NCBI GenBank assembly: GCA_024401215.1
Contig: JAKSLL010000008.1
Location: 1 to 64,000 of the forward strand
Direction of reading: 5' to 3'
Origin: Bacteroidaceae bacterium
Lineage (GTDB): Bacteria; Bacteroidota; Bacteroidia; Bacteroidales; Bacteroidaceae
DNA: 64,000 bases
Within the stretch, counting starts at the first letter, position 1. Each line of letters starts with the position of its first letter. The position numbers and the translations under genes were made by a program. The notes under the pieces are model-generated. The model had not been told where the DNA came from, made no database searches, and worked only from the letters and a program-made list of their open reading frames with translations. This document shows, piece by piece, positions 1,618 through 23,202 of the stretch.

Positions 1618-1722
1618 AAAAGAATTCATTTTCTTTACAAAACAATATCAGTTTTGATGTTTATGAGCATTGTTTCGTATAAACTCAAGCAATAAGAACA
1701 CACAAAAGTGGAAAAAACACAA

Positions 1723-1751
1723 AAAGGGAATGGCATCGACCATTCCCTTTT
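1723..1751 (-). terminator. Rho-independent terminator of the giant beta-helix gene
   Basis: An 11-bp perfect stem (1723-1733 pairing with 1741-1751) with a 7-nt loop lies 22 bp after the stop codon of the 4193-aa gene. On the minus strand it is followed by a T-rich stretch. It closes the secreted-protein cluster and separates it from rhaB. Confidence 0.75.
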
Positions 1752-1772
1752 CGCTAATATTATTGGCTCTGC

Positions 1773-4700
1773 TTATCTTGCAAGAACCTTGTATGTTCTA
1801 TTGTTAACCTTTACTACATGAACACCTGCACGAACAGGAGCAACAAACTCAGAAGCTTCTGCTGTGTCGCTCACTTCCATCTGACCGCCTGCTGTAAAGA
1901 TCTTGACTGTCTCGCCTCCAGAAAGGTTCTTGATGCGAATTGTATTATTCACAACATAAACCTTGATGTCAGAAGCAATGTCCTCAAGCATCTCTCTCTC
2001 TTCCTCTTCATCGCCATCATAGTAATAGCGTGCGTTGCGTGCTTTTGCAGAAGAAGATGTTGCCTGCATTGGACGGTAGAATGTGAGAGTCTCCTTGTCC
2101 TTGAGTGTCGCTGTCTGAGTGAAGATTCCCTCACCTACCCAGACTGTTGCGCTCTCGCCTGCTGCAAGATGCCATTGTGTAGCGTCCCAAGAAGGAACAG
2201 AATAGTATCCTGCGCCACCATCAGCCGCAGTACCGTCTGTGTACTTGCCATCATAGTAGAGCCAGAGAGTGTGAGGTACATTCATGTTATATTCACCTGA
2301 GCCATAGTTGCTGCCAGCAGTACTGTAGTCACTTACAAGGTAAGGCATACCGATGCAGTTCCATCCCATGTTCTCCTTGCTTGTGAAGTCAGCTCCGTTT
2401 CCTTGCTTTGATTCATACTCAGAGTCATTATGTTGAACGAGCTCTACGGTCTTGTACTCCTCGTCCTCTTCCTCCGTGTAAACAAATTCACCAGACTTAG
2501 CCGCCTTTGAAGTGAATCGGTAGAGACCAGCAGTTGTAGGAACATAAAGCACACCATTGTTTGCCTCTGCTGCCTTGCTGAGCGCTGTCCAGCATGCAGA
2601 ATTTCCTGCAGCAAACTTATACTGCCAATCTGAGCGGCTGTCACCATTATAAGAGTAAGCCTTAGCATTAGCCTTAGCAAGAGTGAGAATGCCACTTGCA
2701 ACGCTTGGAGCAGTAACGTCGCTATTGTAGTTCATGCTGAATGGCATGCTGACAAGCGAGCCTCCTGCCTTGATGTCTCTTTCGACAGCAACATATCCAA
2801 CATTCACTTCGTTGCCATTTCCGTAAAGGCTCGCTCCCTTCTTCACGAGGAGATAAGCTGGCTTAAAGTTGTCTGTGCCTATGCTGAGAGTCTTATCTTC
2901 CATAATATAGACAACAGAGCCCTCATGTGGATAATAGTTAGCTGCATCAACAGTCTTCACATCCTTGTCTATTCTCCATGTCTCGAATGCACCAGCATCA
3001 ACCTTATTTGCTGATGTCACATCCTTCAAGAGACGTGGGTTGCCGAGGAGGTCAATATCATTTGCATAATCTACGAATCCTCTCAATGCTGCAGGGAGGA
3101 ACTTCTGCGGATTATAAGCATCCTTTGTCTGGTCGCAGAGGTCGATATTTGATGAAGTCTCGACAAGCTGCCAGTTCAAGTTCTCATCTTCAACTTTATA
3201 GAGAACACCAGAGAATGACTTAGCTGTTGCATCGCTGAAGTTTACAAGAGAGTTCTTAGCGTTAGCTGTTGTTCCTGTTGTCTTTCCTTCAACCGTTACG
3301 TTTACTGCATAGCCATTAGCACCTATATTGAGTGCGCTTGCGCTTGTTGTGTTGTTACGAACAAGAGCCTCATAGAGAAGTGCGTTGTTAATATTTACAA
3401 CGTTCACACCTGTACCGCTCACCTTGTTGTCTGCAACAATAACATTGCGCACAGCAACCTTTGAACCAGCTGCACCATATACAGAGAGTGCTGGCGCTGT
3501 AGTAGATACAGGATTTGTGATAACGAATCCGTCAAGGAGAGCAGACGTAGCGATATCTCCCTCGTTAGAAGTAACGCCATTAACGATAGTCTTGTATGCT
3601 AATGGACTTGCCACACCAGTGCGCATCTTTGCTATCATGGCTGCATAATCTGCTATAGCCTTATCTGCTTCAGCAGGAGTTTTTGATTCGTAGTCGCAAA
3701 CATCATAGACATCAGGTATGCTACCATAGATATTGACGCCATTACGCATTGTGACTGTCTCATCAAATCGTCTCTGCTGAGTTGAAGGAGATCCCTTAAC
3801 GAACACATAAGACTCGGCATTATCATTAAGGACGCTGTAGAGAGCTGCATTGTCGATAGCAGACTGAAGATCACCGATGCCCAATGGACCTCCATTGCCT
3901 TCATCATCCTTCTCCCATGATGTACCGTCACCCTTGTCATTAGTGTTAGGGTCAACATATACAACACGAGTAATCTGACTCTTGATTTCGTATGCGCCGA
4001 GGTCTATCTCATCTACAAATCGTGGTGAATTGGCGATATCAACCGTATCTTTCACTGCCTTGTATGAGTAGTCCTTAGCATAACTGCTGAAATAAGAATG
4101 AACACCCTTGTTGAGGAGACGGTTAGCTGTTGCGAAACTGAAGTTTCTGCTTGCTATGTCCTCATTTTCCGGATCAACGAAGTTTGGTCCGTACATGATG
4201 TCGTTATTCTTATCTGAGAGTCCTGCATTGTAGTTCAGACCAGCCAATACCGTAGTATAGTCAAGACTTTCATTACCGCCTGTAAATGCATTATTCTTAA
4301 CATTAGATGTCTTCTTTGTCTTTAATGCTGTAGAAGTATAAGTCGTTGGAGTTGCTGTAACAACAGTAAACTGTGATCCGTAACCTGAAGTTAATGGGTT
4401 GTTCTTCCAGAACACTGAATTGTAGATGTAAGAAGAGCCAACCGAACTTGTAAGCATCACCTGTCCCTTATTCAAAGCAAATGTATTATTCACTGTTATA
4501 GTGTACTCTGCTGATATAGGGTTGCAATTGTTGTCGTGGAACACATTATTATATACTTGTCCACGTCCACCATTCTTTCCTACATAAACCACACTCTTAC
4601 CTTCATTGCTGTAGAATGTGCTCTTGCTGAGAACAAACTTCGTTGCAGTCACTTTAGCTGCATCAGCTTCACGGTCCTTATAATAGATTGCAGAACCTTC

Positions 4701-7700
4701 TGCAGTAGCTGCTGCATTGCTGTTCACGAATGTGAGTCCATCAAACTGCACAGGAATAGTACCAATTGCTGTCACATCTGCATTCGTCGCACCATAATTG
4801 TTGCTTGCGTCGAATACGCCATCGCCATAACGCTGTGTAGCATCATTAATGTAGAACAAGTGGTCACATCCAGAAGCAGAATTGTTGCGACCTGTGATAA
4901 CAGTCTTGAACTCTGCCACATTGCAGCTGTCTTCAAGCATGTTGCTGTAACCGCCCTTAATCATAAGAGAAGCAATCTTCTTATTCTTGAGAGCCAGACT
5001 TGCAGGTGAATGCGCACCAGCATTAGCATCCTTCGTATCGATATAGAAGCAGTAAGTTCTGCCCTCATCTGTCTGGAATCTATTGAAAGGAGCATATTCG
5101 CCTTCAATAATTCTGATCTCCTTCTTCTTGTTGTTACGTGAAGCAAGAAGTGTCTCTATTGCACGCTGGAGGTCAGAAGTTGGCTTCTTCCATGAAGATC
5201 CATCAGGGATTCCATTGCTAACATTCTCCTTTGTTGATACATACAGTACATCTACATCTTTGAGAGGAGCATAGAAGTATTCGTAAGCACCGATATCAAT
5301 ATAAGCGAGCTTATGAGCAGGCGTTGGGTTATAGCAGATACGGTTAATATTCATCTGCTCCTCGTTTGCAACAGGGTAAGCAGTCTTCATATAGAAGTCA
5401 TCTCCAAGTGGGAGATACTTCTTGTATGAGTCGTATGCTGTCACGAAATTCTTTGCGATGAAATGTGACATTGGATAGTAGCCCTTCGCAACATAATCGG
5501 TATTGTCTATTTCTGCTGCCTTATCTACAGGCACTTCAGAACCAGAACCTCCATAATTGTTGTAGCTCATAGTGTAGCCGCCTGGTGTGATTTCTACGTT
5601 CTGCTCCATCACACCTGAACCGTTATCTGTAAGGTCGCTGACTCTTGCACGGCTCCAGTCAAGACCATCGCTGTATCCGGCAATACCAGCCTTATCAGAA
5701 GGTGCTGCAAAGTTTGGTCCATCAAATGCATCATTCTGACTGCTGATGACAACATTGCTGTTCTGAGAGTAGAGTGTTGCCATATCTGTAAGTGCGCTGT
5801 AAGCAACCTCTCGCTTGTCTTCCTTGTTGTTTGGAGTCACACCTCTGCCCTCTTCGTAAGCACAGAACCATGCTGTCTCCATGAACTTGCTGCTGTCATC
5901 AAGATCTTTCTGACTCATAGGAGCAGAACCTGCAGCAAAGTCTGGATTGTAGTCAGCTGTGTTACGTGTTGGACTGCCGTAGTTGCAGATGAGCTGCGAA
6001 GCGAACTTGAAGTAGCTGTTGCCTGCAAACTTCTTAGCCATTGCAGCATTTACCTCGTTACCCCACGCAACTGTGTTTACCATCTGGTTATGGTAAGTTG
6101 CGCTATAGTTCGTTGCAGAAGCATTAACGCCTGCTGTTGTCTCTGGGTTCATCGTGTAAACCGCAGGATAAGCGTTAGCCTGGTTGCGAACGATATCACA
6201 GTTCACGATATGGAAGTAACCATTCTTTCCTACGAATACTGCACCACCAGTACCTCCGACAGTCTTTGCTGTAGAGTTCTGACCTATGAACTTGTACTGA
6301 GTTGGTGTGATGCTGTATGCCTCATCTACCGCTTCATTGTTAGCAAATACAGTATTGTATGCATTGAGATAATGTGTAGCATAAACAGCACCGCCCTGAC
6401 CTGCGTATGACACAGAATTGCCTTCTGCTGTCTCGCTCTTAGCCATCGCCTTGTTATTCTCGAAGATTGAACCGAAGATGTTGAGCGTACCATTTGAACT
6501 AATAGCACCACCATAGCCTGCAGTATTGCCTTCGAAACGGCAATTAGCAATTGTTACAGGAATATCAATACGACCTACTGCCATTGCAACATCTGTTTGC
6601 TGGTAAGCAGCCTTCTCCTGGTTACCATCAATAAGCATACCACCGCCCTGATAGTAATTGTTGATGCCAAGGTCTTTGATTGAGCCGCTCTGATATCCTG
6701 TAGCGTTACCGCCAGTTACAGTCACACCGTCAATCACGATAGGCTGACCTTCATATTGGTCGAATTTGCCATCCACATATTTTGGAGTGTAAGGGTCAGT
6801 AACAGCTGCGCCATGATATACAGAAGCTATTGGCACAGTACCTACTGCGCTTGTGTTTCTTGTAGAAGAAAGCACATGGTATGCCTTAGCTTTATTACCG
6901 CTGAGTATTGTTGTATTCTTGAACTCCCATGGCTCAATGATATTGTTGCCATTCGCATCCTCGCGCTCACGCTCTTCAAGCATTTCGTTTATTGGAAGAT
7001 TGACGAACTGTATGCCAAGCACAGGGTCTGCATCAGCCTCTCCACCAATGAATTCAACATTATCAGAGATAAGCTGAGGATTGCCAGCCTTACCTGTTGA
7101 GTTAGAGGTCATGTTAGTTGTCTTGTCTGTATCCGCCTTGTAGTATCTGCCATAGAAAGTCTTGGCTGCAGGGTCGTACTTGAATCCGCCATAGACGCTT
7201 ACACCTTCAGGGATATTGAATGACGCACCTCTACCGCCAGTCACCTCGTATGTACCACCTGCTATACAGATTTCGAATGGCATATTGTTTGCCTTGTCTG
7301 TTGTGTTCTTGTTTCGTGCAGACACAATATAATCCAAAGCAGCCTTCAAGCCCTCAAACGGATAAGCGAAAGATGAGCCTTGCTGAGAGTAATAAGCGTT
7401 CTTTGTCTGATTGCTCATTGCTGTTGCAAGTTCGCTGTCCAAAGCACCCTCCTCAACAACAAACAGACGAAGCATCACCTCCTTAGGCTGATTTACATCA
7501 TCAAGAGCTCTTGCTCCTATGTCAATACTTGTACGAGTGTTGTTTTTGCTTATCTTGCGGCTTGTATTCATGAAGTCTGCTGGAGAGAGAGCTTCAGATG
7601 CAACAAGCGCATCATACTCATCAAGCGGCATACCTGCCACACAGAGTCGTGATGTCTTATAAAGTCCGAAATATCCAAATTGGTCAAACTTGGTATCACC

Positions 7701-10700
7701 TGCACCCTCTACTGCGAGAGTGTTATTGTCTGTTGCGAAACGTGTGCCCGCACTATTCTTTGGACCTACACTGATGTTATCCTTACCATCTGCCTTAATC
7801 TCCTGAAGAGCTGAGTATGCGAATGGATAATAGATCACATCGTCGGTCTTATCGTCTGCTGGCTTTGAAAGTTCATACGCACCTGCCACATTCGCCTGGT
7901 CTGAACTTGTATTCTGCCAGATAACAGAACTGTTAACACGAACATTGACGCCGCTGCCGTACCAGATACCACCACCAAGCTTTTCAGCCTTGTTGTTTAC
8001 AATTGTAGAAGTATATACGTGAGGCATTTTAGCATCCATAGCTTTGCCCTCAACAGGATCGGTAGAGATATATGTCTTGTCTGAAAGAACATCACCGTCC
8101 TCAAACACATAGATACCACCGCCATAGTTAGCCTTGTTCTTATCGATAAGGCTACCTGAAACAAGCGCTCCGTGAGTCAATGCCAAAGCACCACCATAGT
8201 TTGCTGAATTATCCTGCACAATACAGTTGCGCACATGAGCGAAATCAGTAACGATAGCAGCACCACCAAACTCATTGATGTTCTTGACAGAAGAGCTTGT
8301 GCTCATTCCGTCTGCCTGGCCGCCTGTGATATAGAGACCATCTACAACAGCTCGGTCCTTGATGCCTTTAAGCGTTGTTGTGAGGAGGTCGCCTTCTGCG
8401 TCATACATGTTGTTTGTGAACGTCACAACGTGATATGTAATAACATCAGCATCCTCTACCTTATTATTATAACGCGCATCAAGATAAGTTGGATTGCCTG
8501 TCACATCACGCAAATCCTTGCCATCCTTGTTGAATCCGTTATTAGTATTTGACCATGCACCAGTAGCTGCCTCGTCAGTATAGCCACCCCAGAGTTCAAC
8601 TCCATGTGGAACAAGAATTGACCATTCGCGTGTGCTCTCGTTATCTGTGTCCGTAGAGCTTGTGCGGTTTGCATAGTAAGTGAAGCGTTCACCCTTTGCA
8701 GCCATAGCCTTGCTGTTGGCAAGCTTGACAATAACAGCCTTTGTTGGGTTTGCAAGCTTATAGCGTCCTGCTGCATCGAGCACAAGCTGGAGCTTATCTG
8801 CACATGCTGCATTCATAGGGTCTTTGGCTGATGCCATGCCATGACCATTTGGAGTGACATAGTAAACAGCTTTACCTGCCACAGATGCCAAGTCTGGAGC
8901 GATGTCGTATGCACCGTTATACTCGTATGCGCCAATATCCACTGTACAGTCCTTGATACGGTCTGTGTAATCCATATCATTGTCAGGAAGCTCTACATCT
9001 GTCTTGCCGTCGTAGTCCTTTCCAAGATCTTCTGTACCCTCATTCACACAGTCATAGGCATTGTTATGCAATGCGATGCGGTAGTCAAGATTTGCATTTG
9101 CTGTAGCTATAGGAAGAGCAAATGGATTTGCTGTCGCAGCTGCAGTTCTCTTAAACTCCTTATTATTCTTAAGTGTCACCGCATTGTAGCTATTGACAAA
9201 TTCCGCCTGATTTGTCTGAAGGAAACAGTTGGTGAAGCCAATAGGAGTGTTTGTGCTTGCACGCTGAAGCAGACTCTGTCCATCTTCTGCCATGATAATA
9301 GAATTGTAAACTGTGAGATGTGCATCTGCAGCGGAAGCTGTATAAACTCCAATTGTTGATGCACCGGTATTGTTCACAACTGTATTATTGTAGAAGTTGG
9401 CTGACTCGAAATAGCAGCCTGCACCCTGGCGACTTCCAGATGTCAGCTTATTGCCGCAGACAACAGAATTGTACATGGTACCCTTGATCATGTAGATACC
9501 ACCTCCGTAAGTATCGCTGCTTCCTGCTCCTTCATTATTCATGATGTAGCAGTTGATGACGCTCGAACCGTCGCAATATACACCGCCACCACGTGTGCGG
9601 CCGTTACCATCTGCGAGCTTGTTATCACGAATCACGCAATTGCGAAGCACAACATTCTCATACATCTGAACACCAGCACCACCATTACGTCCACCTGCAT
9701 TCACTCTGTAACCATAGCGGAATGTGAAACCATCCCATTCAGCGCCTTCATAGACATCTCGTGAACGAGGCGTATCACTATCATCAGCAGTTGTCACACG
9801 ACATTCTGCTGGATGAGAAAGCACACTCACATTATTTGTTTTTCTGTCACGCTCTGCAATTGATGTATGTGTCTGGAGGATTGTCTCGTAATCACTCACT
9901 TTCAGTCCAAGCTTCTGATTCTTAACTGACAGAGCGATACCTTCTGACAACTGTGGATGACGAGCATCCATACCTGGAGTTCCTGTCTTAGGGAATCCAC
10001 CATACACCTTTACATGGTTACGAATCTGATAACCCTTATTAGAAGTATATGTACCAGCACCTACCCACACGCTGACTTCCTGATTAGCATCAGAGTCAAA
10101 GTCTTGATATGTATGAGTGACGTTGGCTGTGCCATATACATATTTCTCAGAAACATTTACAACACGAGTCTTAAATGACTTCGACATATCGTCACGTGCG
10201 CTGTTTACAGCAAATTGCAATCCGATAGTACCCTGCACTTCATCGTATGTAACTTTCTTTGTATAGAATCTAAGATTTGTAGATGTAGATGACAAGCCGT
10301 TAACAGTAAGGTATCTGTTCACAGCAGAAGGCTTCTGGCCTGTACCATTACATATTGTACATGTCTGAGTTGTAGGACAAGATTGTGGCACCTTTCCATT
10401 TGTACAATCTGGACATGGGCTTTGCTTCCTGCCATTACATACATCACAATTTATCAAGCCACTGCCCGGTGTTGGACGTCTATCCCAAACATCGCGACCT
10501 CCACACACTGTACAATTTCGGTAACCATATTTATTACATGAAGAACAATCTGTATAACCTTTATGATTACAAGCACCACAATTGGTTGAACCCTTACCAT
10601 TACATGTATAACAATTTCTGAGACCTGTTCCTTTACATGTATTACAATTCCTTGTACTCAAGCCTGTTCCATTACAACCTGTACATGTCAAATTACCCTG

Positions 10701-13700
10701 GCCATTACAATTTGTACATTTCAAATTGCCCTGACCATTACAATTTGTACATGTTCTACCATTCCACCAAGTTGTTCCTGCTCCCCAACATGTTGTACAT
10801 TGAGTTGTCTTGTTGCCCCAACATGTTGTACATGTAGTAGTCTTGTTGCCCCAACATGTTGTACATGTAGGATGTCCTTTTCCGCCACATTGGTCACAAG
10901 CTATTTTTCCATCGTTACACTGTGCGCAAGGAATCTGTCCATCTATACATTGTGGACAATCAACCTTTCCGTCAACACATTTATCACAATCATATCGTCC
11001 ACCATCGCAATTTGGACAGTCTATCTTACCATTTGCATCACAGTGTGTACATTCTACCTGATGGTCACCACCACAAGTGTGACAATCAACATCGACATGT
11101 CCTGTACCACCACAGATAGAGCAGTCTTCTGTTGTAGGACAAGCTACCATTGTGTTATAAGAGAAATACAATGTACCAGTATTTGCATTGGCTGCCGCAT
11201 TTGACTTCCACAAAGAACTATTGTTAAAACTCAAATTATGGTCATCATCATAGCCAACATTCACCTCTCTTCCATTATATGTTGTCTTAATGGTATAGCC
11301 ATTTGCTGGTGTTCCAGTAATATTAAACTCTGTGGCATTCTTGATATCTGTTGTTGTTGTAAATCCAGTGCCATTATACATTATATAGTTATCACCGTTG
11401 CCCAACACCACGTTAGTGCCTGTGAGGACACCATTCTGCTTAGAGGGAATTCCTTCTCCTACTCGACCTCTTTCTGTCTGTCCATGTGCCTCAGCATCAT
11501 AGTAATAAGCATTACCATTGATAGCAGTCGCCCATGACATACCATTTCCTCCTGCAGCATAGTCAATTGTGCCATCCTCGTTACGATAGTCGCGCACAAA
11601 ATACACACTACCGTATGCAGGCTGTCCCTTTGGATTGGCAAATTCACCAACCTCTTCCTGAGTAGAGTAATGGTTTTCTACTGCACCAATATCAGGCAGA
11701 CCACCATTGTCACGAGTTGTGACTGTTGACATATCGGTACCCCATAGAGAATGGTCGCCATTAGCCAATGCTGCATTTGTCATCGGATTGGTATTCAACG
11801 GCTCCCATGATGTGGTACGTCCATAATATGTCACATCACCAGTCTTGCTGACACCTGAGTTCTGAGTGGAGTTCACAAAACGAGGGTAATTAGCATCTTC
11901 TGGATCGAATGTCAGGCTCGCCTTTGTTTCAATGAAACTGTTAAGCTTCAATACTGTCTTATAGTCGAAGAGGTTATTAGTACCAGAATAAGTACCTGTT
12001 CCTTGAAGACCATCCTGACCGTATGAGTCTGCCTTATTGGTTTCACTGCGTACTGCACGCAAGTTTGCATAGACAACAGAATTGTTTATCTCAACATTAC
12101 CAGCATTAACAACTGCTGTTCCTGCATTTCGGATTATATCACCATGATTAAGGATTACTGAAGATCCTGCTTCTGTCTGAACAATACCATAAGTCTTAGA
12201 CGTTACTGACGAAGTCTGATTATTATGGAATATATAGTTTTCAAAGGTGACAGAACTGTTACCTGTTGCATAGACTGCAGCACCCTTCATTGACGTACAT
12301 CCTGCTACAAGACAGTTTCTTACAACATTGCCTGTTGATGCATTCTTGAAATAGAATGCAGAACCGTTTCGTTCTGAAGCTTTTGACCATGTATAAGAAT
12401 TACTGTTTCCGTATCTAAGCTGGAATCCATCAAACACAGCATTTTTCACACCATCGAAAGTAACGAGGTGCATCACATTATAATTATAATCATCTGTGAT
12501 GTTACCTGTGATGACTGTTGGATACAATACCGGATTGCGTCTGCTGATATCTGTACCCTTAAGTTCTTCATCGAAGCCACCGAGCACAGTCACGCCACTC
12601 TTCATATTGATAGAGAGCAGACGTACATGTGAACCCGTAGCCGACTGTACATTTGTGATAGTACCTTCCTTCACATAAATCTTATAACCATCACCTGCCG
12701 CATTGATAGCGTCAGCAAGGCTGAGAGCAGGCTTATCCCAACTTGCACCACCTGTAACATCGGCAGTCTTTGAAGATGGGTCAACAAATATCTCCTTCTT
12801 TGCAGTTGCCACAATCTGCTGAGCGTCAGAAGTGTAAGCACCTATTGTACAACGAGAGTTGAACGCCACATTAAGAATGTCCTTAGGATTAGCAACGGCA
12901 TGAAGCGTATTACCTGTATCTATATCAGCAAGCTGAAGACCTGCATTGCTGAGCGGAGAGCTTGCAAGCGGCTTGAAGTTGTAACTTATAAGATCAGACG
13001 TAGAAGAAAAACCAGAAGAACCTACTGGATTTGTGAAGTTTGGACATGCCTCTTCTGCATCAACATCCACATTTGATGTTGAAAGGGAAACAATGTTGTT
13101 CTTCACTGTGCTGCTCCAGTCAACAAAGTCGTTTCTTGAAAGATATACATAATTGAGTACAGGCTTTTCAACAGATGCAGAAGAGCGTGAGTTAGCATAC
13201 TGCACATTTTTGTTGGCGCTACATGTATTACCCCAAAGCACGCTGTTGTAGATGCGGGCATGGTCGCGGATATACACACCACCAGAACGACCTGTTATCA
13301 CGCCATTCTCATTTGCTCCAGTACCATTACACTGGTTTGTGGCTACAGTCACATTGTCAAGGAGACCGCCGCCATCCATGTAAATACCACCAGCCTCAGT
13401 ATGAGACATATTGTTATTTACGAGGGTAGCTATAGCTGTCATAGCAAACTTGTCTGACTCAATAGAAGCGTCATATAAGAAAGCTATACCACCACCAAAG
13501 CGAGCCACACACTTCATTACAGCAGAATGAAGCACAGAACCTTTGCCATTGACACAGATACCACCACCATAACCGTATGATTTACCGACACCTACAGATT
13601 GTGACATCCATACATAGACATTATCCACAGTACCGCCGCCGTCCATATATATCGCACCACCAGCTCTTGAAGCATAGCACTTGCGGAATATACAGTTTGT

Positions 13701-14354
13701 CACAGACGAACCATCTACCATGTATGCACCGCCACCGTATGCATTATGCGGACGACCAGATGCAATAGTATTTCCTGCATAACCTCCTTCGATAGTACAT
13801 CCGTCAAGGAGAGCCTCGCCACCAATAGCATTAGGCTTTCCGTTGGAGTCGAATCCTTTAGTTGCAAACCACACAACATGATAGCTGTTGCCGTATGTTG
13901 TGACGCTCCACTCCTTCTTGGATGTATTTGGAGTGAAGGCTATTGCCTTGCTGGCAAGGTTACCAGAAAGGACTGTCTCGTTGGAGAAGAATGTGCCGAC
14001 ATTTGTCTTTTTAGTGGCACGCTGCGCCTTGTCGCTTTCTGTTCCAGCAAAACCGCCATACACCTTGATTCCAGCAGGAATGATGAATGAAGAGTAGAGG
14101 TTTGAGGTGTTTGAAGCCTCTGTGGAGCGCGTAGGCTTGTAAGTACCCTTGGCAATCCACACCTCGCCTGTCAGACCATTGTCGGACAACGAATTTATCG
14201 CCGCCTGAACAGTCTTCTTGGCATTAGCCCATGACTTTCCGTCTTTAGAATCGCTACCGTCACTCTTCACATAACGGACGTTCTGCGCTGCCAGCATTAG
14301 AGGAAGCAGGAGCGCAAGACAGAGAACCTGTAACTTAATTTTGAAATTACTCAT
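1773..14354 (-). CDS. Giant secreted multi-module beta-helix protein with DnaJ-like cysteine array
   Basis: A 4193-aa exported protein of unknown function. The N-terminus is a signal peptide ending LLPLMLAAQ. At least seven modules then begin with a YV/FV strand plus a G(T/S)SW...A.......AI motif (near residues 27, 520, 920, 1833, 2295, 3036 and 3463) and end with a DIGAYE-like motif (near 503, 888, 1806, 2280, 3021, 3453 and 3788). Between these are many NCxFxxNxAxxGGG-type rungs of a right-handed parallel beta-helix, as in pectin-lyase-fold and choice-of-anchor Q proteins. Module three is interrupted by a 22-fold CxxC array at residues about 1072-1340. The last 400 residues end in GVHVVKVNNRTYKVLAR, resembling a type IX secretion tail. 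A surface adhesin or glycan-binding role is likely; no catalytic site was recognised. It is last in a same-strand cluster. Confidence 0.85.
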   Translation of the reverse strand: MSNFKIKLQVLCLALLLPLMLAAQNVRYVKSDGSDSKDGKSWANAKKTVQAAINSLSDNGLTGEVWIAKGTYKPTRSTEASNTSNLYSSFIIPAGIKVYGGFAGTESDKAQRATKKTNVGTFFSNETVLSGNLASKAIAFTPNTSKKEWSVTTYGNSYHVVWFATKGFDSNGKPNAIGGEALLDGCTIEGGYAGNTIASGRPHNAYGGGAYMVDGSSVTNCIFRKCYASRAGGAIYMDGGGTVDNVYVWMSQSVGVGKSYGYGGGICVNGKGSVLHSAVMKCVARFGGGIAFLYDASIESDKFAMTAIATLVNNNMSHTEAGGIYMDGGGLLDNVTVATNQCNGTGANENGVITGRSGGVYIRDHARIYNSVLWGNTCSANKNVQYANSRSSASVEKPVLNYVYLSRNDFVDWSSTVKNNIVSLSTSNVDVDAEEACPNFTNPVGSSGFSSTSDLISYNFKPLASSPLSNAGLQLADIDTGNTLHAVANPKDILNVAFNSRCTIGAYTSDAQQIVATAKKEIFVDPSSKTADVTGGASWDKPALSLADAINAAGDGYKIYVKEGTITNVQSATGSHVRLLSINMKSGVTVLGGFDEELKGTDISRRNPVLYPTVITGNITDDYNYNVMHLVTFDGVKNAVFDGFQLRYGNSNSYTWSKASERNGSAFYFKNASTGNVVRNCLVAGCTSMKGAAVYATGNSSVTFENYIFHNNQTSSVTSKTYGIVQTEAGSSVILNHGDIIRNAGTAVVNAGNVEINNSVVYANLRAVRSETNKADSYGQDGLQGTGTYSGTNNLFDYKTVLKLNSFIETKASLTFDPEDANYPRFVNSTQNSGVSKTGDVTYYGRTTSWEPLNTNPMTNAALANGDHSLWGTDMSTVTTRDNGGLPDIGAVENHYSTQEEVGEFANPKGQPAYGSVYFVRDYRNEDGTIDYAAGGNGMSWATAINGNAYYYDAEAHGQTERGRVGEGIPSKQNGVLTGTNVVLGNGDNYIMYNGTGFTTTTDIKNATEFNITGTPANGYTIKTTYNGREVNVGYDDDHNLSFNNSSLWKSNAAANANTGTLYFSYNTMVACPTTEDCSICGGTGHVDVDCHTCGGDHQVECTHCDANGKIDCPNCDGGRYDCDKCVDGKVDCPQCIDGQIPCAQCNDGKIACDQCGGKGHPTCTTCWGNKTTTCTTCWGNKTTQCTTCWGAGTTWWNGRTCTNCNGQGNLKCTNCNGQGNLTCTGCNGTGLSTRNCNTCKGTGLRNCYTCNGKGSTNCGACNHKGYTDCSSCNKYGYRNCTVCGGRDVWDRRPTPGSGLINCDVCNGRKQSPCPDCTNGKVPQSCPTTQTCTICNGTGQKPSAVNRYLTVNGLSSTSTNLRFYTKKVTYDEVQGTIGLQFAVNSARDDMSKSFKTRVVNVSEKYVYGTANVTHTYQDFDSDANQEVSVWVGAGTYTSNKGYQIRNHVKVYGGFPKTGTPGMDARHPQLSEGIALSVKNQKLGLKVSDYETILQTHTSIAERDRKTNNVSVLSHPAECRVTTADDSDTPRSRDVYEGAEWDGFTFRYGYRVNAGGRNGGAGVQMYENVVLRNCVIRDNKLADGNGRTRGGGVYCDGSSVINCYIMNNEGAGSSDTYGGGIYMIKGTMYNSVVCGNKLTSGSRQGAGCYFESANFYNNTVVNNTGASTIGVYTASAADAHLTVYNSIIMAEDGQSLLQRASTNTPIGFTNCFLQTNQAEFVNSYNAVTLKNNKEFKRTAAATANPFALPIATANANLDYRIALHNNAYDCVNEGTEDLGKDYDGKTDVELPDNDMDYTDRIKDCTVDIGAYEYNGAYDIAPDLASVAGKAVYYVTPNGHGMASAKDPMNAACADKLQLVLDAAGRYKLANPTKAVIVKLANSKAMAAKGERFTYYANRTSSTDTDNESTREWSILVPHGVELWGGYTDEAATGAWSNTNNGFNKDGKDLRDVTGNPTYLDARYNNKVEDADVITYHVVTFTNNMYDAEGDLLTTTLKGIKDRAVVDGLYITGGQADGMSTSSSVKNINEFGGAAIVTDFAHVRNCIVQDNSANYGGALALTHGALVSGSLIDKNKANYGGGIYVFEDGDVLSDKTYISTDPVEGKAMDAKMPHVYTSTIVNNKAEKLGGGIWYGSGVNVRVNSSVIWQNTSSDQANVAGAYELSKPADDKTDDVIYYPFAYSALQEIKADGKDNISVGPKNSAGTRFATDNNTLAVEGAGDTKFDQFGYFGLYKTSRLCVAGMPLDEYDALVASEALSPADFMNTSRKISKNNTRTSIDIGARALDDVNQPKEVMLRLFVVEEGALDSELATAMSNQTKNAYYSQQGSSFAYPFEGLKAALDYIVSARNKNTTDKANNMPFEICIAGGTYEVTGGRGASFNIPEGVSVYGGFKYDPAAKTFYGRYYKADTDKTTNMTSNSTGKAGNPQLISDNVEFIGGEADADPVLGIQFVNLPINEMLEEREREDANGNNIIEPWEFKNTTILSGNKAKAYHVLSSTRNTSAVGTVPIASVYHGAAVTDPYTPKYVDGKFDQYEGQPIVIDGVTVTGGNATGYQSGSIKDLGINNYYQGGGMLIDGNQEKAAYQQTDVAMAVGRIDIPVTIANCRFEGNTAGYGGAISSNGTLNIFGSIFENNKAMAKSETAEGNSVSYAGQGGAVYATHYLNAYNTVFANNEAVDEAYSITPTQYKFIGQNSTAKTVGGTGGAVFVGKNGYFHIVNCDIVRNQANAYPAVYTMNPETTAGVNASATNYSATYHNQMVNTVAWGNEVNAAMAKKFAGNSYFKFASQLICNYGSPTRNTADYNPDFAAGSAPMSQKDLDDSSKFMETAWFCAYEEGRGVTPNNKEDKREVAYSALTDMATLYSQNSNVVISSQNDAFDGPNFAAPSDKAGIAGYSDGLDWSRARVSDLTDNGSGVMEQNVEITPGGYTMSYNNYGGSGSEVPVDKAAEIDNTDYVAKGYYPMSHFIAKNFVTAYDSYKKYLPLGDDFYMKTAYPVANEEQMNINRICYNPTPAHKLAYIDIGAYEYFYAPLKDVDVLYVSTKENVSNGIPDGSSWKKPTSDLQRAIETLLASRNNKKKEIRIIEGEYAPFNRFQTDEGRTYCFYIDTKDANAGAHSPASLALKNKKIASLMIKGGYSNMLEDSCNVAEFKTVITGRNNSASGCDHLFYINDATQRYGDGVFDASNNYGATNADVTAIGTIPVQFDGLTFVNSNAAATAEGSAIYYKDREADAAKVTATKFVLSKSTFYSNEGKSVVYVGKNGGRGQVYNNVFHDNNCNPISAEYTITVNNTFALNKGQVMLTSSVGSSYIYNSVFWKNNPLTSGYGSQFTVVTATPTTYTSTALKTKKTSNVKNNAFTGGNESLDYTTVLAGLNYNAGLSDKNNDIMYGPNFVDPENEDIASRNFSFATANRLLNKGVHSYFSSYAKDYSYKAVKDTVDIANSPRFVDEIDLGAYEIKSQITRVVYVDPNTNDKGDGTSWEKDDEGNGGPLGIGDLQSAIDNAALYSVLNDNAESYVFVKGSPSTQQRRFDETVTMRNGVNIYGSIPDVYDVCDYESKTPAEADKAIADYAAMIAKMRTGVASPLAYKTIVNGVTSNEGDIATSALLDGFVITNPVSTTAPALSVYGAAGSKVAVRNVIVADNKVSGTGVNVVNINNALLYEALVRNNTTSASALNIGANGYAVNVTVEGKTTGTTANAKNSLVNFSDATAKSFSGVLYKVEDENLNWQLVETSSNIDLCDQTKDAYNPQKFLPAALRGFVDYANDIDLLGNPRLLKDVTSANKVDAGAFETWRIDKDVKTVDAANYYPHEGSVVYIMEDKTLSIGTDNFKPAYLLVKKGASLYGNGNEVNVGYVAVERDIKAGGSLVSMPFSMNYNSDVTAPSVASGILTLAKANAKAYSYNGDSRSDWQYKFAAGNSACWTALSKAAEANNGVLYVPTTAGLYRFTSKAAKSGEFVYTEEEDEEYKTVELVQHNDSEYESKQGNGADFTSKENMGWNCIGMPYLVSDYSTAGSNYGSGEYNMNVPHTLWLYYDGKYTDGTAADGGAGYYSVPSWDATQWHLAAGESATVWVGEGIFTQTATLKDKETLTFYRPMQATSSSAKARNARYYYDGDEEEEREMLEDIASDIKVYVVNNTIRIKNLSGGETVKIFTAGGQMEVSDTAEASEFVAPVRAGVHVVKVNNRTYKVLAR
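10330..11145 (-). other. DnaJ-type CxxCxGxG cysteine array within the giant protein
   Basis: Residues about 1072-1340 carry 22 CxxC motifs spaced roughly 10 residues apart, many in the form CxxCxGxG (for example CTNCNGQGN, CNTCKGTG, CYTCNGKG). This is the signature of the zinc-binding cysteine-rich domain of DnaJ, which normally has four copies. No J domain is present. Three copies of CTTCWGNKTT or CTTCWGAGTT stand in tandem; at DNA level an identical 18-mer recurs every 33 bp at 10783, 10816 and 10849. The array is bracketed by near-identical motifs, CPTTEDCSICGGTG at the start and CPTTQTCTICNGTG at the end. Zinc binding is inferred from the motif only. Confidence 0.85.
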
Positions 14355-14440: not shown

Positions 14441-16270
14441 CTACTCTACGGTGATATCACCTTTCAACCAAGAAGTCCAACCATTTGTTGTCTCTGTGGT
14501 GAAGTTTATCAATCCGTAGGCTCCAGCTTTACCATTCTTTGTCACTCTGACACTAAGCGGGAAGTCTTTCTGCTGAATAGCGTAGAAATAGTCACGTCCG
14601 TAATATTTAGTGCCTGTTGTGGTTTTGTATGAATATGTTTTTGTGCCGGCAGAAGTGTTCTCAGCAGGCTTGAAAAGATAGCCTTTGTCAAGAAGGTATC
14701 TTACATCAAAACCACCAATTGTTGTTGATGTATTTTCAACTCCCCATTGCAAGTCAACCTTTGCAGCAACATGATAGAGTGTTGCGCTTACTGAAGGGTT
14801 GTCGAGCGGAAGACTACCTTCCCAATTTGCTCCTGTATGATAAGGAAGTGAGTAGAGATTCTTCAACACACTCTGGTCAGTAGAAGTGAATGTGGCATTC
14901 TGTATCACCTTCTCATCCACACCAATTGCTATGGCGCTTGTGCCAGTGGCTGTCACAGGCTTATTTGAGGCATAAGCATAAACATGTATAGACTTGACAT
15001 CCTGAATGTTTGGTATATCAGGATAGATTTCATCTGAATACTCATATATCTCATCTTTGACAGTCCACTTTGTAGCAGGAATGCCTGTTATGTTGTTGAT
15101 AGCTTTCAGTTTGCCATCTACACATGTATAGACAACAATATTTGTTGGCCTGTCAAACACATCCTCCACACCAGGGTCACCGTTTGCGGCGCGTGTCTCC
15201 TCCACCTTGTTTCCAAGCTGCCATCTTGTGTTCACCTTCAGTCTGACTGACACCATAGATGTCTCTTTAACTGTTGCCGCATATCCGTAGGCATATCCTG
15301 GCAAGAAATCTTTTCCTGCCAATGCTCCTGTATAGTAGTATTTCGTAGTCTTCTCATCCAATGGGATAAGTGTGGCAACAACAGACTTATCCTTGAGGTT
15401 TGATGCAGGAATTGTGATATAAACAGTCAGAGTTGCTCCTCCATTCACGGTGATGCCATGAGTAGCATCTGTACCTAAGTCAACATAGAACAAGTCATCA
15501 TAGTCCTCACCCTGCTTTGGATCATTGTTCTTATACACATCATCATCTGCCACATCGATAAATGCAGGTTTATAGTCTTCTCCCTGATTTTCGCCTGCAT
15601 TGACGAGGTCGCACACTCGTGTTGTCTGATAGAATGTTCCATCTGTCGTCTTCAGCTCAAGTCGCTTGAATGTGCATGTACCAGCATCTTTCGGCAGAGT
15701 GAGTTTGAAACGTATCACAGATGCGACATGCTTAAATTCAAAACGCACATTATCTGTTCTCTGACATTCTGCGCGTGACACGTTATAGTCGTATGTTGCA
15801 AGATGAGCGTAAGTACCATTCGCTGTCTGACGCTGACCAGAAAAGTCAAAATGGACATTATCCTTATTTGTCTCTTGCTCATTGTATGGGAAGATAGAAT
15901 AGCACATTCTGTCCCAAGTTTTTTCATCTATTGGGAACAAATATCCTCCATCTTCGCTACCTGGATAATGGAACGCAGCATTATTACCAGCTTTGGTATG
16001 TGACTCGAAGCAAACGGGTGCTCCATCCCCAATATACACACCGATCTTATCACCCTCCTCCCATGAGAAAGCCAAGCCTGCGCTATTAGGAATGTATGTG
16101 GATCGAGTCGTAAAGTCACGGTCCTCCATACCCTCTCCGCAGATATAGTCAGAGAGGTATGCCTCACTTTGCAAGCTCCTCACATCACCGCCTGACCCAT
16201 TCTTCTCCTCATCGTTAGCACAAGAGAAGAAAGCTAATGCCAAGACTAACAAAATAAAACTTTTCTTCAT
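14441..16270 (-). CDS. Fimbrillin-like surface lipoprotein
   Basis: A 609-aa exported lipoprotein. The ATG at 16270 is chosen because it gives a clean lipoprotein signal (MKKSFILLVLALAFFSCAN, lipobox FFSC); the longer frame begins with GTG and adds non-signal sequence. After the signal come FSWEEGDKIGVYIG and a series of beta-rich segments (RFEFKHVASVIRFKLTLP, LTVYITIPASNLKD) typical of fimbrillin/Mfa-like (PF13149-type) proteins that form fimbriae or bind their tips in Bacteroidales. The C-terminal half contains a second beta-sandwich-like region. It sits between a 73-aa peptide gene and the giant gene on the same strand. It may be a fimbrial accessory or tip subunit; which one cannot be decided here. 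Confidence 0.75.
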   Translation of the reverse strand: MKKSFILLVLALAFFSCANDEEKNGSGGDVRSLQSEAYLSDYICGEGMEDRDFTTRSTYIPNSAGLAFSWEEGDKIGVYIGDGAPVCFESHTKAGNNAAFHYPGSEDGGYLFPIDEKTWDRMCYSIFPYNEQETNKDNVHFDFSGQRQTANGTYAHLATYDYNVSRAECQRTDNVRFEFKHVASVIRFKLTLPKDAGTCTFKRLELKTTDGTFYQTTRVCDLVNAGENQGEDYKPAFIDVADDDVYKNNDPKQGEDYDDLFYVDLGTDATHGITVNGGATLTVYITIPASNLKDKSVVATLIPLDEKTTKYYYTGALAGKDFLPGYAYGYAATVKETSMVSVRLKVNTRWQLGNKVEETRAANGDPGVEDVFDRPTNIVVYTCVDGKLKAINNITGIPATKWTVKDEIYEYSDEIYPDIPNIQDVKSIHVYAYASNKPVTATGTSAIAIGVDEKVIQNATFTSTDQSVLKNLYSLPYHTGANWEGSLPLDNPSVSATLYHVAAKVDLQWGVENTSTTIGGFDVRYLLDKGYLFKPAENTSAGTKTYSYKTTTGTKYYGRDYFYAIQQKDFPLSVRVTKNGKAGAYGLINFTTETTNGWTSWLKGDITVE

Positions 16271-16284
16271 ATTCCAATTCCTTT

Positions 16285-16506
16285 TTACATATTGTTCCAC
16301 AATGAACCAGAAAAGTCCTGCTGTTCCTGATCAACTGAACCGCCAAAAAATTCTGGTGTTTCAAAAATCTCATCGTAGCGCTCTTTCGCCCAGCCATCGC
16401 CGGCTTCGCCGTCGTCACCTCCACCATAAACAGGCGACAGTGGCTGAAGGTAACAACTTACCTCCATTTCCCTCTTAATGATTTTTGGTGTTAAATATTT
16501 CTTCAT
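16285..16506 (-). CDS. Small acidic peptide of unknown function (73 aa)
   Basis: The ATG at 16506 begins MKKYLTPKIIKREMEVSCYL; the upstream TTG start is less likely. The product has no signal peptide and no membrane segment. After a basic N-terminus comes a glycine-rich stretch PVYGGGDDGEAGDGW and an acidic, aromatic tail. The stop is 14 bp before the fimbrillin-like ATG, so translation may be coupled. A second small gene (17633-17848) shares the N-terminal pattern K(K/R)Y(L/I)xPxI and sits just before another secreted-protein gene. Short proteins of this kind next to secreted proteins are common in Prevotella, but I know of no assigned function. Confidence 0.6.
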   Translation of the reverse strand: MKKYLTPKIIKREMEVSCYLQPLSPVYGGGDDGEAGDGWAKERYDEIFETPEFFGGSVDQEQQDFSGSLWNNM

Positions 16507-16583
16507 ATTATAGAATTTGTTTTTATTCAACTTATTTTTTCATTTATATATGTGGATAATTCCACTATTAAAATCTCACTTTA

Positions 16584-17618
16584 TCAATTTTTAGAAAATA
16601 CTGCACGGATGTTTCTTCCGATATATCGGCAGTCGCTGTTTCGATTCATGTCGTATGACGCAAAAAACAGCCCCCATGCTTCATCATTGTACGTCTCATT
16701 TAATGAGCTTGTCCAGTAATACCCACTATAACCTATCAAATAACCTGTCAGTTTTTTGCAACCTCCCGCAGGCATAAAGATATGCGTGTCAGACAGCGAA
16801 TAGGATGCCATGAGTGTTGGTGAGAAGCAGCTCACCTTGCCTCTGTCGGCCGCCGCTTTCGCTTTATAGACGACGTAACCAGCAACCCCCGAACCTTTGT
16901 AGCTTGTCGTCCATTCCCAATAACAACCCTTCCTCAATTCTTCTTCATCTGCGTATGTCGGCATACGCCATTTGTCGCCCCAGCGTCTGCTTGCCGCATC
17001 ATCAGCAGCTTCAAGCTGGCGTATGTTTGAGATTGTCCCGTAGTAAGTACGAAGACAATACTTTGTCATGCTGTTGCCATCTCCATCACAAAGAGAATAA
17101 TTCTCCCATCCAAAGATGTTCTGAGGTTCAACCTCGCCCCAAGCATAGTAGTCGCCATAGTCATGCGGCGCAGATGCGCCAAGATTGCAGGTCGCCCACA
17201 TCACGTTGAGTCCAAGGTCCACATATTCGTGACCTGCGAGCACCATTGTCGGTTCGTCGGCAAGCACGTATGTTTTCTTTACTGCCTTGCCCAGCAATAT
17301 ATCGACAAGAAGATTCACATCTGAGATATTGACATTCCCGTCATCATTCACGTCACCTGTATAGCGTTCGCCTGTCACACCGCCTCCCAGATATACGCGC
17401 ACCTTCTCCTGCTTCGCCACACCCATCACCTGATAGACAAGTATTGGGACGTCAGAAATGCTCACTTCGCCATCGCCTGCTACATCGCCTGCGTAACGTG
17501 TCTTACTCTGCGCATTGACAAACAATGCGACAGCGAGCATTGCCACAACAGATATTATCTTCTTAAATACATTTAACACCTTATATAATATTGTTTTTGC
17601 GGCAATCAGGATCAGCAT
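16584..17618 (-). CDS. Secreted dockerin-type protein with FISUMP/DUF1566-like domain
   Basis: A 344-aa exported protein. The ATG at 17618 is supported by a GAGGTG Shine-Dalgarno-like site just upstream; the hydrophobic stretch ISVVAMLAVALFVNAQ is a signal peptide, though its N-terminal region is long. Residues about 40-115 hold two dockerin type I-like calcium loops, GDVAGDGEVSISDV and GDVNDDGNVNISDV. The rest (HEYVDLGLNVMWATCNLGA, GDKWRMPT, YYWTSS) matches the Fibrobacter-succinogenes-major-paralogue/DUF1566-like family seen in many Bacteroidales surface proteins. No cohesin is visible in the window. It follows the 71-aa peptide gene by 14 bp. Function unknown; a cell-surface or secreted binding protein is likely. 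Confidence 0.75.
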   Translation of the reverse strand: MLILIAAKTILYKVLNVFKKIISVVAMLAVALFVNAQSKTRYAGDVAGDGEVSISDVPILVYQVMGVAKQEKVRVYLGGGVTGERYTGDVNDDGNVNISDVNLLVDILLGKAVKKTYVLADEPTMVLAGHEYVDLGLNVMWATCNLGASAPHDYGDYYAWGEVEPQNIFGWENYSLCDGDGNSMTKYCLRTYYGTISNIRQLEAADDAASRRWGDKWRMPTYADEEELRKGCYWEWTTSYKGSGVAGYVVYKAKAAADRGKVSCFSPTLMASYSLSDTHIFMPAGGCKKLTGYLIGYSGYYWTSSLNETYNDEAWGLFFASYDMNRNSDCRYIGRNIRAVFSKN

Positions 17619-17632
17619 CCATCACACCTCAT

Positions 17633-17848
17633 TTACCAGAGAGCGTCGTCATCATCGTAGAAATCATCATTTCCGTGACCCATCGTTACCACTCCACGAG
17701 ATTTAGCATCTGCATCAAAGTCGCGACTTGCCACACCGCCAATTTCGATACGAGCATCCGAAAAAGCAAGCATCGGATTTATCAGCGCTATATTAAATTC
17801 GTCTATTTCTGGTTTTATATATCTTTTATTATTATTAAACTTAGCCAT
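17633..17848 (-). CDS. Small acidic peptide of unknown function (71 aa)
   Basis: The ATG at 17848 (a GTG lies one codon earlier) starts MAKFNNNKRYIKPEIDEF. The peptide lacks a signal sequence and ends in a very acidic run, DDFYDDDDALW. The N-terminal KRYIKPEI resembles KKYLTPKI of the 73-aa peptide at 16285-16506; both precede an exported protein by about 14 bp and both have an acidic, tryptophan-containing C-terminus. They may be paralogous accessory peptides. Being embedded in an all-minus cluster with regular spacing supports real coding. Confidence 0.55.
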   Translation of the reverse strand: MAKFNNNKRYIKPEIDEFNIALINPMLAFSDARIEIGGVASRDFDADAKSRGVVTMGHGNDDFYDDDDALW

Positions 17849-17866
17849 CACCTTTGTCTTTTAGCC

Positions 17867-17934
17867 CACTTTCGGAAAGTGTCGCTCCGCACACTCAACA
17901 TCAACAGCAAAAAACACAAATCACGAAAGTGAAT
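17867..17934 (-). other. Short hairpins between leucine-rich gene and downstream peptide gene
   Basis: CACTTT-CGG-AAAGTG (17867-17881) is a perfect 6-bp hairpin, and a second short one, TCAC-GAAA-GTGA, lies nearer the leucine-rich gene stop. Neither is followed by a long T tract on the minus strand, so they look more like processing or attenuation sites than full terminators. Weak evidence. Confidence 0.3.
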
Positions 17935-17940
17935 TGATGT

Positions 17941-22298: not shown

Positions 22299-22313
22299 AT
22301 TAAGAGCTAACTG

Positions 22314-22367
22314 CTAGATTTTCTAGATTTTCTAGATCTCCTAGATTTTCTAGAATTTCTAGATTCA
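22314..22367. repeat. Six 9-bp tandem repeats (CTAGATTTT) between pflB and pflA
   Basis: Six contiguous 9-bp units start at 22314, 22323, 22332, 22341, 22350 and 22359: CTAGATTTT three times plus CTAGATCTC, CTAGAATTT and CTAGATTCA. The array starts 15 bp after the pflB stop. Each unit contains CTAG, and TCTAGA is itself a palindrome, so the RNA could fold in several registers. It could be a slippage-prone microsatellite tuning pflA expression or just a spacer. A possible TAGATTTG -7 element (22385-22392) follows it but lacks a good -33. Confidence 0.8.
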
Positions 22368-22473
22368 CCAGGTATTATAGCGGATAGATTTGCAACTTTC
22401 TCGCAATACGAAAATAGCGTTAGTCGCGAAGCGGGACGCGTTTCTAATTTTCACATTGCAATTACCATTCTAT

Positions 22474-23202
22474 ATGATTGGCAGATTACATTCATTAGAA
22501 TCATTTGGCACAGTAGATGGCCCTGGAATTAGGTTTGTAGCCTTCTTTCAGGGCTGTCCTATGCGTTGCGCCTTTTGTCACAACCCTGACACATGGGATC
22601 CAGACGGAGCCGTTCAGTACGAATGGACGCCAGAGCAGCTCATGGAAGAAGTGAAGAAATACAAAAACTTCATCAAGAAGGGCGGAGTGACATGTACAGG
22701 CGGAGAGCCACTCATGCAACTAGAATTTCTCATTGCATTTCTAAAGCTTTGCAAAGATGCGGGATACCATACCGCACTCGACACCAGCGGCGTGATTTTC
22801 AACGAGAAAGCTAAAGAAGCGATAAGATACTGCGACCTTGTGATGCTCGACATAAAGACACTTGACGACAGCATCCACAGCACCTATACAGGATGCAGCA
22901 GAAAAAACAACCAGGCGTTTCTCGACTACTTGCAAGAGGTCGGGAAGACGACATGGATAAGGCATGTTGTTGTGCCAGGATATACCGACAATGATGACAG
23001 GCTCCGCACTCTTGCTCAACACATCTCTAAATACTCTGTAGTTGAGAGAGTGGAGATTCTGCCCTATCACACAATGGGCAAATACAAATACGAAGGATTA
23101 GGCATCCCCTACCCACTTGATGGCGTTGACGACTTAAGCGAAGAAAGGCGAGAGAATGCCAAAAGGATATTCAGGGAATGCGTAAATTGCAAAGTCGTTT
23201 AG
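22474..23202 (+). CDS. pflA: Pyruvate formate-lyase activating enzyme (radical SAM)
   Basis: A 242-aa radical S-adenosylmethionine enzyme that installs the glycyl radical on PflB. The iron-sulfur motif CPMRCAFC (CxxxCxxC) lies near residue 30, and TCTGGEP follows as the SAM-binding GGE motif. The ATG at 22474 (MIGRLHSLESFGTVDGPG) is preferred because it matches the family N-terminus; the longer frame from 22390 adds 28 unrelated residues. It is 175 bp downstream of pflB, separated by the 9-bp repeat array, so it may be co-transcribed or use a weak promoter of its own. Confidence 0.94.
   Translation: MIGRLHSLESFGTVDGPGIRFVAFFQGCPMRCAFCHNPDTWDPDGAVQYEWTPEQLMEEVKKYKNFIKKGGVTCTGGEPLMQLEFLIAFLKLCKDAGYHTALDTSGVIFNEKAKEAIRYCDLVMLDIKTLDDSIHSTYTGCSRKNNQAFLDYLQEVGKTTWIRHVVVPGYTDNDDRLRTLAQHISKYSVVERVEILPYHTMGKYKYEGLGIPYPLDGVDDLSEERRENAKRIFRECVNCKVV

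Follow-up and report, generated by a model that had tools for sequence, protein, structure and literature searches.

What would an array of 22 CxxC motifs, reminiscent of the cysteine units of DnaJ, be doing within a giant protein that looks exported? The question is raised by contig JAKSLL010000008.1 of a Bacteroidaceae bacterium (GenBank assembly GCA_024401215.1), whose positions 1 to 64,000 were analysed as one stretch, referred to here as the window. An open reading frame (ORF) of this window encodes a giant protein with 84 cysteines, 46 of which fall within residues 1072-1340, and it is this cysteine array that we discuss in the following. Type I J-proteins such as DnaJ are cytoplasmic co-chaperones. 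A first-pass annotation had taken the array to be of the DnaJ type and the giant to be exported, and had proposed that the array might bind zinc, hold a beta-helix rod together or act as a redox element. On the strength of sequence comparison, we consider it fairly probable that the array is a long DnaJ-like zinc hairpin, with up to 11 predicted zinc sites, inserted in a surface giant.

The cysteine array

The array itself is real, and all of it lies in one exported-looking ORF. Namely, the 22 CxxC motifs start at residues 1078 to 1332 (motif span, window positions 10350-11123), while shuffles of the composition of the whole protein (n = 1000) gave 1.6 CxxC on average and never more than 6. 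The spacings between motif starts, with the presumed centre in brackets, are 13 11 11 10 10 10 10 11 11 11 (16) 11 11 13 11 11 11 11 22 11 18. The pitch of 10 residues initially given for them is right in rough terms, the commonest of the 21 intervals being 11, with 12 occurrences vs 4 for 10; the irregular ones are 13, 13, 16, 18 and 22. Both cysteines are kept in all 22 units, the mean DNA identity of the units being just 47%, and the most similar neighbours are units 9-10 and 12-13, each pair 91% identical. Five of the six tryptophans of the array lie at residues 1168-1197. It should be noted that the 33-base-pair (bp) units may have been mis-stacked during assembly, in which case their exact number would be off.

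The DnaJ-type character is supported by the CxxCxGxG units, complete in 9 of the 22 motifs, and by weak matches to BSD2 and DnaJ. In particular, the best match of the array among the chains of the PDB was BSD2, at an E-value of 0.0017, with DnaJ (1exk) at 0.013, and a profile made from ten repeat stretches of the window and other arrays matched BSD2 (6ekb) at 2.1e-4 and DnaJ (1exk) at 2.6e-4. A search with the DnaJ cysteine-rich profile PF00684, the check proposed along with the first-pass annotation, drew a blank both for the giant (Pfam, up to E 1) and for the array alone (up to E 10). The only family listed for the array was BSD2_CRD (PF25436), whose 14.6 bits lie under the cut-off of 27; PF00684 was passed by two of three small exported arrays that were tested. 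The absence of a J domain was upheld, the Pfam matches of the full giant ORF, taken up to E 1, including none. In the same genome, PF00684 gave weaker matches to UvrA (named by eye), which we rejected as a relative of the array. Since the matched stretches of solved chains hold up to four motifs, an extended ladder is a prediction.

A spacing rule in long arrays

How might so long an array be arranged? In Ydj1, Cys143 and Cys201 are reported to belong to one zinc site and Cys162 and Cys185 to the other, with two zinc measured per monomer (PMC6584821); in chain order, these sites join motifs 1+4 and 2+3. By analogy with Ydj1, nested pairing of motif i with motif n+1-i would be expected to yield an even motif count, a central tip and mirrored spacers. 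Long arrays mostly do have an even count, their longest spacer at the centre and mirrored spacers, a rule that is new here.

The rule was derived from DNA-pattern scans of genome contigs and viral contigs, which are samples, and the array counts hold among the matches listed. The first set comprised 105 arrays of at least 8 motifs, 94 of them cellular (the window array included) and 11 viral; by source, 80 came from 117 genome-contig loci, 13 from protein searches and 11 from viral contigs, the window array completing the set. Dropped from it were L201 and L256 (glycine/cysteine noise), near-identical arrays, cysteine-run noise, which was removed by rule, and ORFs with fewer than 8 motifs in one group, and at two of the 117 genome-contig loci, L181 and L283, the pattern was not covered by an open frame. 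The motif number is even in 85 of the 105 arrays, and 68 of these 85 have their unique longest spacer at the centre, vs 9.6 expected. For cellular arrays alone, the corresponding figures are 74/94 and 59/74 (8.2 expected). Giving one vote to each cluster, with fractional votes because even and odd counts are mixed in 3 of the 47 clusters, we obtained 38.8/47 even and 30.0/40 central for the whole set, vs 4.1 +/- 1.9 expected, and 34.8/43 even and 27.1/36 central for the cellular clusters, vs 3.6 expected. What is more, the non-central spacers mirror one another: over 33 clusters, the mismatch was 164 vs 277 +/- 15, the lowest of 2000 permutations reaching 218. Compared with direct repetition of the two halves, mirroring was better in 19 clusters, worse in 2 and tied in 12, and the pattern is therefore not simply that of a doubled half-array.

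A second set, taken from viral contigs, started from 107 arrays, of which 84 were non-redundant and 82 remained after two noise rows had been removed; 5 of these 82 have near-identical counterparts among the 11 viral arrays of the first set, the loci being otherwise non-overlapping. Here, 75 of 82 arrays are even, and the centre is longest in 68 of the 75, vs 10.2 expected. Short arrays found by protein search mostly fit as well, several four-motif proteins being spaced 11 (18) 11 and L021 being spaced 11 11 (18) 11 11, and two DnaJ fit the central-spacer rule with 16 (26) 14. Among arrays of 10 motifs, central spacers of up to 44 residues occur. The window array has an even number of motifs, 11 on either side of its 16-residue centre, and this centre resembles that of the other exported arrays, where it measures 14-18 in most.

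Applied to the window array, this arrangement would give two antiparallel arms of 11 motifs each, joined by a tip, with motif i opposite motif 23-i. The four cysteines of each facing pair would clamp one zinc, with up to 11 zinc in a row. The hairpin would stand out from a separate, perhaps beta-trefoil-like domain, itself placed by insertion at the border of the giant's third beta-helix module, and would probably act as a stiff metal-clamped spike that shows its Trp-rich tip outside the cell. Its length could change by one added 11-residue unit per arm. In this respect, the similar units 9-10 and 12-13 flank the tip as if each arm had recently gained one, as balanced growth needs. The tryptophan cluster is no more than a hint at a binding surface close to the tip, and we infer that the spacings of 22 and 18 are bulges near the base of the hairpin.

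The array as an insertion

Is the array a regular part of such giants? Homologous giants were sought with residues 1440-1830, just C-terminal of the array, which were matched in 16 of 250 other sampled genomes of the family (17 of 251 with the own genome). Fifteen of the 16 loci are giants of 2536-5162 residues, three of them cut by contig ends, and CxxC is absent from all 15; the sixteenth, a 1202-residue ORF, matches weakly and contains two CxxC that lie scattered. One of the array-free giants, L317, belongs to the same genus. The site of the array is covered in 14 giants, L320 ending before it, and in these 14 the alignments to the window protein stop at residues 696-955 and restart at 1346-1540. 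By eye, 8 of 9 giants inspected carry array-free sequence of differing length and content between segments that resemble GSSWxNAIxGN and GLQYAV, this stretch being almost missing in the ninth, L319.

The codons of the array are unusual too. Third-position GC amounts to 59 vs 103.4 expected for these amino acids under the codon use seen elsewhere in the gene (z -6.3), the lowest z among 226 windows outside the array being -3.0, and cysteine is encoded as TGT:TGC in a ratio of 43:3 within the array, vs 22:16 in the rest of the gene. This bias is consistent with an array acquired recently from a donor of different codon preference, or with a few unit sequences having spread recently. Because CxxC is absent in 15 of 15 homologous giants and the synonymous codons diverge, we read the array as inserted and not as a constituent of the beta-helix rod. 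The same 15 giants leave the idea that the array belongs to the rod, or holds it together, without support, and on the same grounds we rejected the view that giants of this kind generally contain a metal element.

Relatives of the array

Long CxxC arrays are widespread but sparse. By sequence search (E 1e-6, own genome included in both cases), they were found at the level of the order in 10 of 393 genomes, and at that of the phylum in 3 of 395, with no second giant ORF among those matches. The named pattern matches, the best 80 of 117 loci, come from Bacteroidales, Clostridia, Planctomycetota, Spirochaetes, Chloroflexi, and Asgard and euryarchaeal metagenome-assembled genomes (MAGs). A crude rule assigns a signal-like N-terminus to 32 of the 107 array ORFs among the matches listed, at least four of these calls looking false (L185, L216, L249, L281). 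Exported-looking arrays occur in Bacteroidales, Clostridia, Planctomycetota and an archaeon, so the first supposition, that an exported CxxC array would have no precedent, is not supported. Many of the Bacteroidales matches are small exported arrays or lipoproteins of 10-16 motifs.

Several relatives deserve a mention in their own right. The own genome encodes a second array protein (L011, contig 224, 1429-3315) with 15 CxxC, a membrane-like segment (by eye), a TerB-like region under the Pfam cut-off and a homologue in L006; a smaller ORF, similar in sequence by eye, comes ahead of the array protein at each of the two loci. L015, L022, L023, L024 and L031 end in a four-motif array spaced 11 (18) 11 or 12 (18) 11 and show, by eye, a zinc-ribbon-like start, a membrane segment, BACON-like domains and mostly a proline-rich stretch. 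In L212, L217, L218, L259 and L279, the gene next to the exported array gene encodes a protein that looks exported and has, by eye, EF-hand-like loops; L212 and L279 have a longer run of neighbouring genes in common. MORN-like repeats (by eye) lie beside the array in L284 (5127-6092) and are fused to it in L180. One exported-looking protein, that of L030, seemingly holds two separate hairpins, 11 11 (28) 11 11 and 9 (27) 9.

Many viral contigs (L040, L047, L082, L093, L108, L334, L396 and others) carry arrays of 8-14 motifs, and three of these arrays, searched against PHROGs, matched families of unknown function only. The window array as a protein query found no relative among the viral contigs. 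A first viral DNA pattern without glycine was abandoned, having yielded mostly cysteine-rich noise.

The host gene and its surroundings

The coordinates of the giant gene, of the array and of the neighbouring features are collected in Table 1. The modules of the giant are repeated and, by eye, beta-helix-like, and a choice-of-anchor Q domain (NF041518) is found at residues 1786-1813, with 29.1 bits vs a cut-off of 25 (E 8.5e-07). With a signal peptide seen by eye, the giant is probably exported, as first proposed. The secretion-like tail fared less clearly: it has a sub-threshold DUF6383 match (Table 1), and a family search of the giant did not find the type 9 C-terminal domain TIGR04183. SprA is encoded in the own genome, and TIGR04183 tails were recognised there in seven genes other than that of the giant, including one within the window. 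At window positions 42106-46749, a 1547-residue exported-looking protein carries a recognised type 9 sorting tail.

Table 1. Window positions of the giant gene, its cysteine array and adjoining features, with the basis of each assignment
Feature	Position	Strand	Basis
Giant ORF, 4193 residues, host of the array	1773..14354	minus	ATG start, internal stops absent
Signal-peptide-like N-terminus, residues 1-23	14286..14354	minus	by eye
Variable region, residues 952-1400, array and flanks	10155..11501	minus	alignments of 14 giants
N-terminal flank, residues 975-1071, possibly two beta-trefoil-like lobes	11142..11432	minus	repeat pattern by eye
Cysteine array, residues 1072-1340, 22 CxxC, 46 Cys	10335..11141	minus	motif count, profile matches
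Inferred left arm, motifs 1-11, residues 1078-1196	10767..11123	minus	spacing and unit comparison
33-bp tandem units, left of tip	10783..10870	minus	2.7 copies, 94% matches
Inferred tip, residues 1190-1201	10752..10787	minus	within the 16-residue spacing from motif 11 (1186) to motif 12 (1202)
33-bp tandem units, right of tip	10669..10754	minus	2.6 copies, 88% matches
Inferred right arm, motifs 12-22, residues 1202-1342	10329..10751	minus	22-residue spacing after motif 19
C-terminal flank, residues 1341-1371, possible third lobe	10242..10334	minus	by eye
DUF6383-like tail, residues 4127-4191	1782..1976	minus	Pfam, E 0.016, under curated cut-off
Terminator-like hairpin, 16 pairs, 3' of giant	1719..1754	minus	consensus scan
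Fimbrillin-like lipoprotein gene, upstream of giant	14441..16300	minus	by eye; gap to giant 86 bp

The terminator-like hairpin is one of 14 sites that the consensus scan gave for the stretch, vs 11.1 expected. Upstream of the giant, window positions 14441-19401 hold a run of surface-type genes that includes the fimbrillin-like lipoprotein, which has no Pfam match at 1e-5, a dockerin-like protein (both names by eye) and a BspA-type leucine-rich protein. Further on, at 20058-23202, lie a pyruvate-formate-lyase-like glycyl-radical enzyme and a radical SAM gene, the former 89% identical to an enzyme in the genome of L223, a Bacteroidales MAG from goat abomasum.

Discussion

How well does a zinc hairpin account for the window array? 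A number of observations weigh against it. To begin with, mirroring in the window array itself is not significant, the mismatch of 22 comparing with 26.0 when all spacers are permuted (p 0.23) and with 23.4 when the centre is kept in place (p 0.33), and two spacers near the end of the array, 22 and 18, are longer than the central one, which ranks third. In the related arrays, motif counts are odd in 20 of 105 of the first set, some with CxxxxC in place of the missing motif (by eye) and others unexplained, and 17 of the 85 even arrays lack a unique central maximum. In addition, 25 genome-contig ORFs did not enter the counts because no single group reached 8 motifs, some being split by the gap limit, some compositional noise and some unexplained, and the short arrays L008, L025 and L032 break the rule. 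In 23 arrays of the second, viral set, the mirrored mismatch equals the direct one (46 each), and this set therefore reproduces two features, even motif number and central spacer, but gives no replication of the mirroring. A look for covariation of residues across facing motifs, in 66 and 56 arrays, detected none. Finally, the flanks perhaps resemble the three lobes of a beta-trefoil, a likeness seen by eye, and residues 927-1071 as a query found no homologue in 60 other genomes.

What else, then, might the array be? It is unlikely, in our opinion, that the cysteines serve as disulfides or as a redox relay in which each CxxC cycles alone at the cell surface. The exported look of the protein would suit such a role, as would the thiol-disulfide activity reported for the DnaJ cysteine-rich domain (PMC5818400). 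That said, independent CxxC units require neither even counts nor a long central spacer, nor mirrored spacers; moreover, VKOR was unmatched in the own genome at E 0.001, DsbA-type proteins not having been searched for. An arrangement of linear beads, in which neighbours (1+2, 3+4, and so on) share a metal and no hairpin forms, likewise predicts an even motif number. However, in arrays of 10, 14, 18 and 22 motifs, it would place the long central spacer inside a metal site, and it leaves both the mirrored spacers and the nesting reported for Ydj1 (1+4, 2+3) unexplained; we regard it as quite improbable. Among the roles originally floated for the array, zinc is favoured over redox by the pairing rule, and a rod-holding role is not supported.

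Two further explanations would deny the array a role of its own or a place in this gene. It could be a fast-growing tandem repeat, tolerated in the variable region of a surface protein, in line with the 15 homologous giants that do without CxxC and with 33-bp tandem units of up to 91% identity. This is rather unlikely, since both cysteines are intact in 22 of 22 units despite the low mean identity of their DNA. Alternatively, the assembly could have joined in an array from another gene, or one of another length, the genome being a 234-contig draft with contamination estimated at 7% and the array deviating in codon use. Yet no frameshift, an artefact that had been raised from the outset, was seen: the reading frame runs uninterrupted through array and flanks, homologues can be aligned to either side of the array, and foreign codon use is compatible with recent acquisition too. 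A chimera or a wrong copy number is therefore very improbable. The inserted zinc hairpin is the reading that we retain.

Does this have a meaning beyond one gene? We would give about an even chance to the wider idea that the DnaJ zinc finger is the four-motif case of a length-variable, two-stranded zinc ladder with n/2 metal sites and balanced growth near its tip, spread through bacteria, archaea and microbial viruses and often extracellular, of which the window array, the longest clean one that we saw, would have 11 predicted zinc sites and would have been acquired recently by a surface giant. If so, a textbook chaperone domain would be one member of a series of metal ladders, with the number of zinc sites readable from sequence. 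A simple structural prediction would thereby become available for many unannotated exported, cytoplasmic and viral proteins, together with a testable route by which a hairpin lengthens with its pairing kept. What is more, the bacterial surface could possibly bear a large zinc store or a stiff spike of this kind.

Comparison with known systems

Among the titles and abstract openings of the open-access literature, we found none on arrays of more than four motifs, which does not imply that they are absent from print. Among the systems close in kind are the small Bacteroidales arrays (L005, L158, L212, L217, L228, L235, L259 and others), which, like the window array, have a signal peptide or lipobox (by eye or by the crude rule) and which, with their 10-16 motifs, have the longest spacer at the centre; unlike the window array, theirs makes up nearly the whole mature protein, with no giant host. 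A parallel in architecture is L193 (266-5935, a Euryarchaeota MAG), an exported-looking protein of 1889 residues with a 12-motif array near its N-terminus, six motifs lying on either side of a spacing of 17. It differs from the window giant in that it is archaeal and that inspection by eye suggests GLUG-like and cadherin-like repeats as well as a membrane segment at the C-terminus.

Turning to characterised proteins, anti-TRAP (RtpA) stands at the two-motif end of the series: it is reported to have two CxxCxGxG motifs with zinc bound, and it differs from the window array in being an oligomer-forming regulatory protein of 53 residues (PMC2896485). BSD2/ZnJ2 (PF25436; 6ekb, 9ci1) is a DnaJ-type zinc domain that has no J domain and in which, as in the array, successive motifs lie 11 residues apart, whereas it has four motifs and is a chloroplast chaperone (PMC5818400). 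The type I DnaJ/Hsp40 domain (PF00684; 1exk, 2ctt; Ydj1) shares the CxxCxGxG units, and the array profile matches 1exk, but it has four motifs vs 22 and belongs to a J-protein. The window array is, in the broad sense, a putative DnaJ-type zinc-hairpin, yet it is not a DnaJ.

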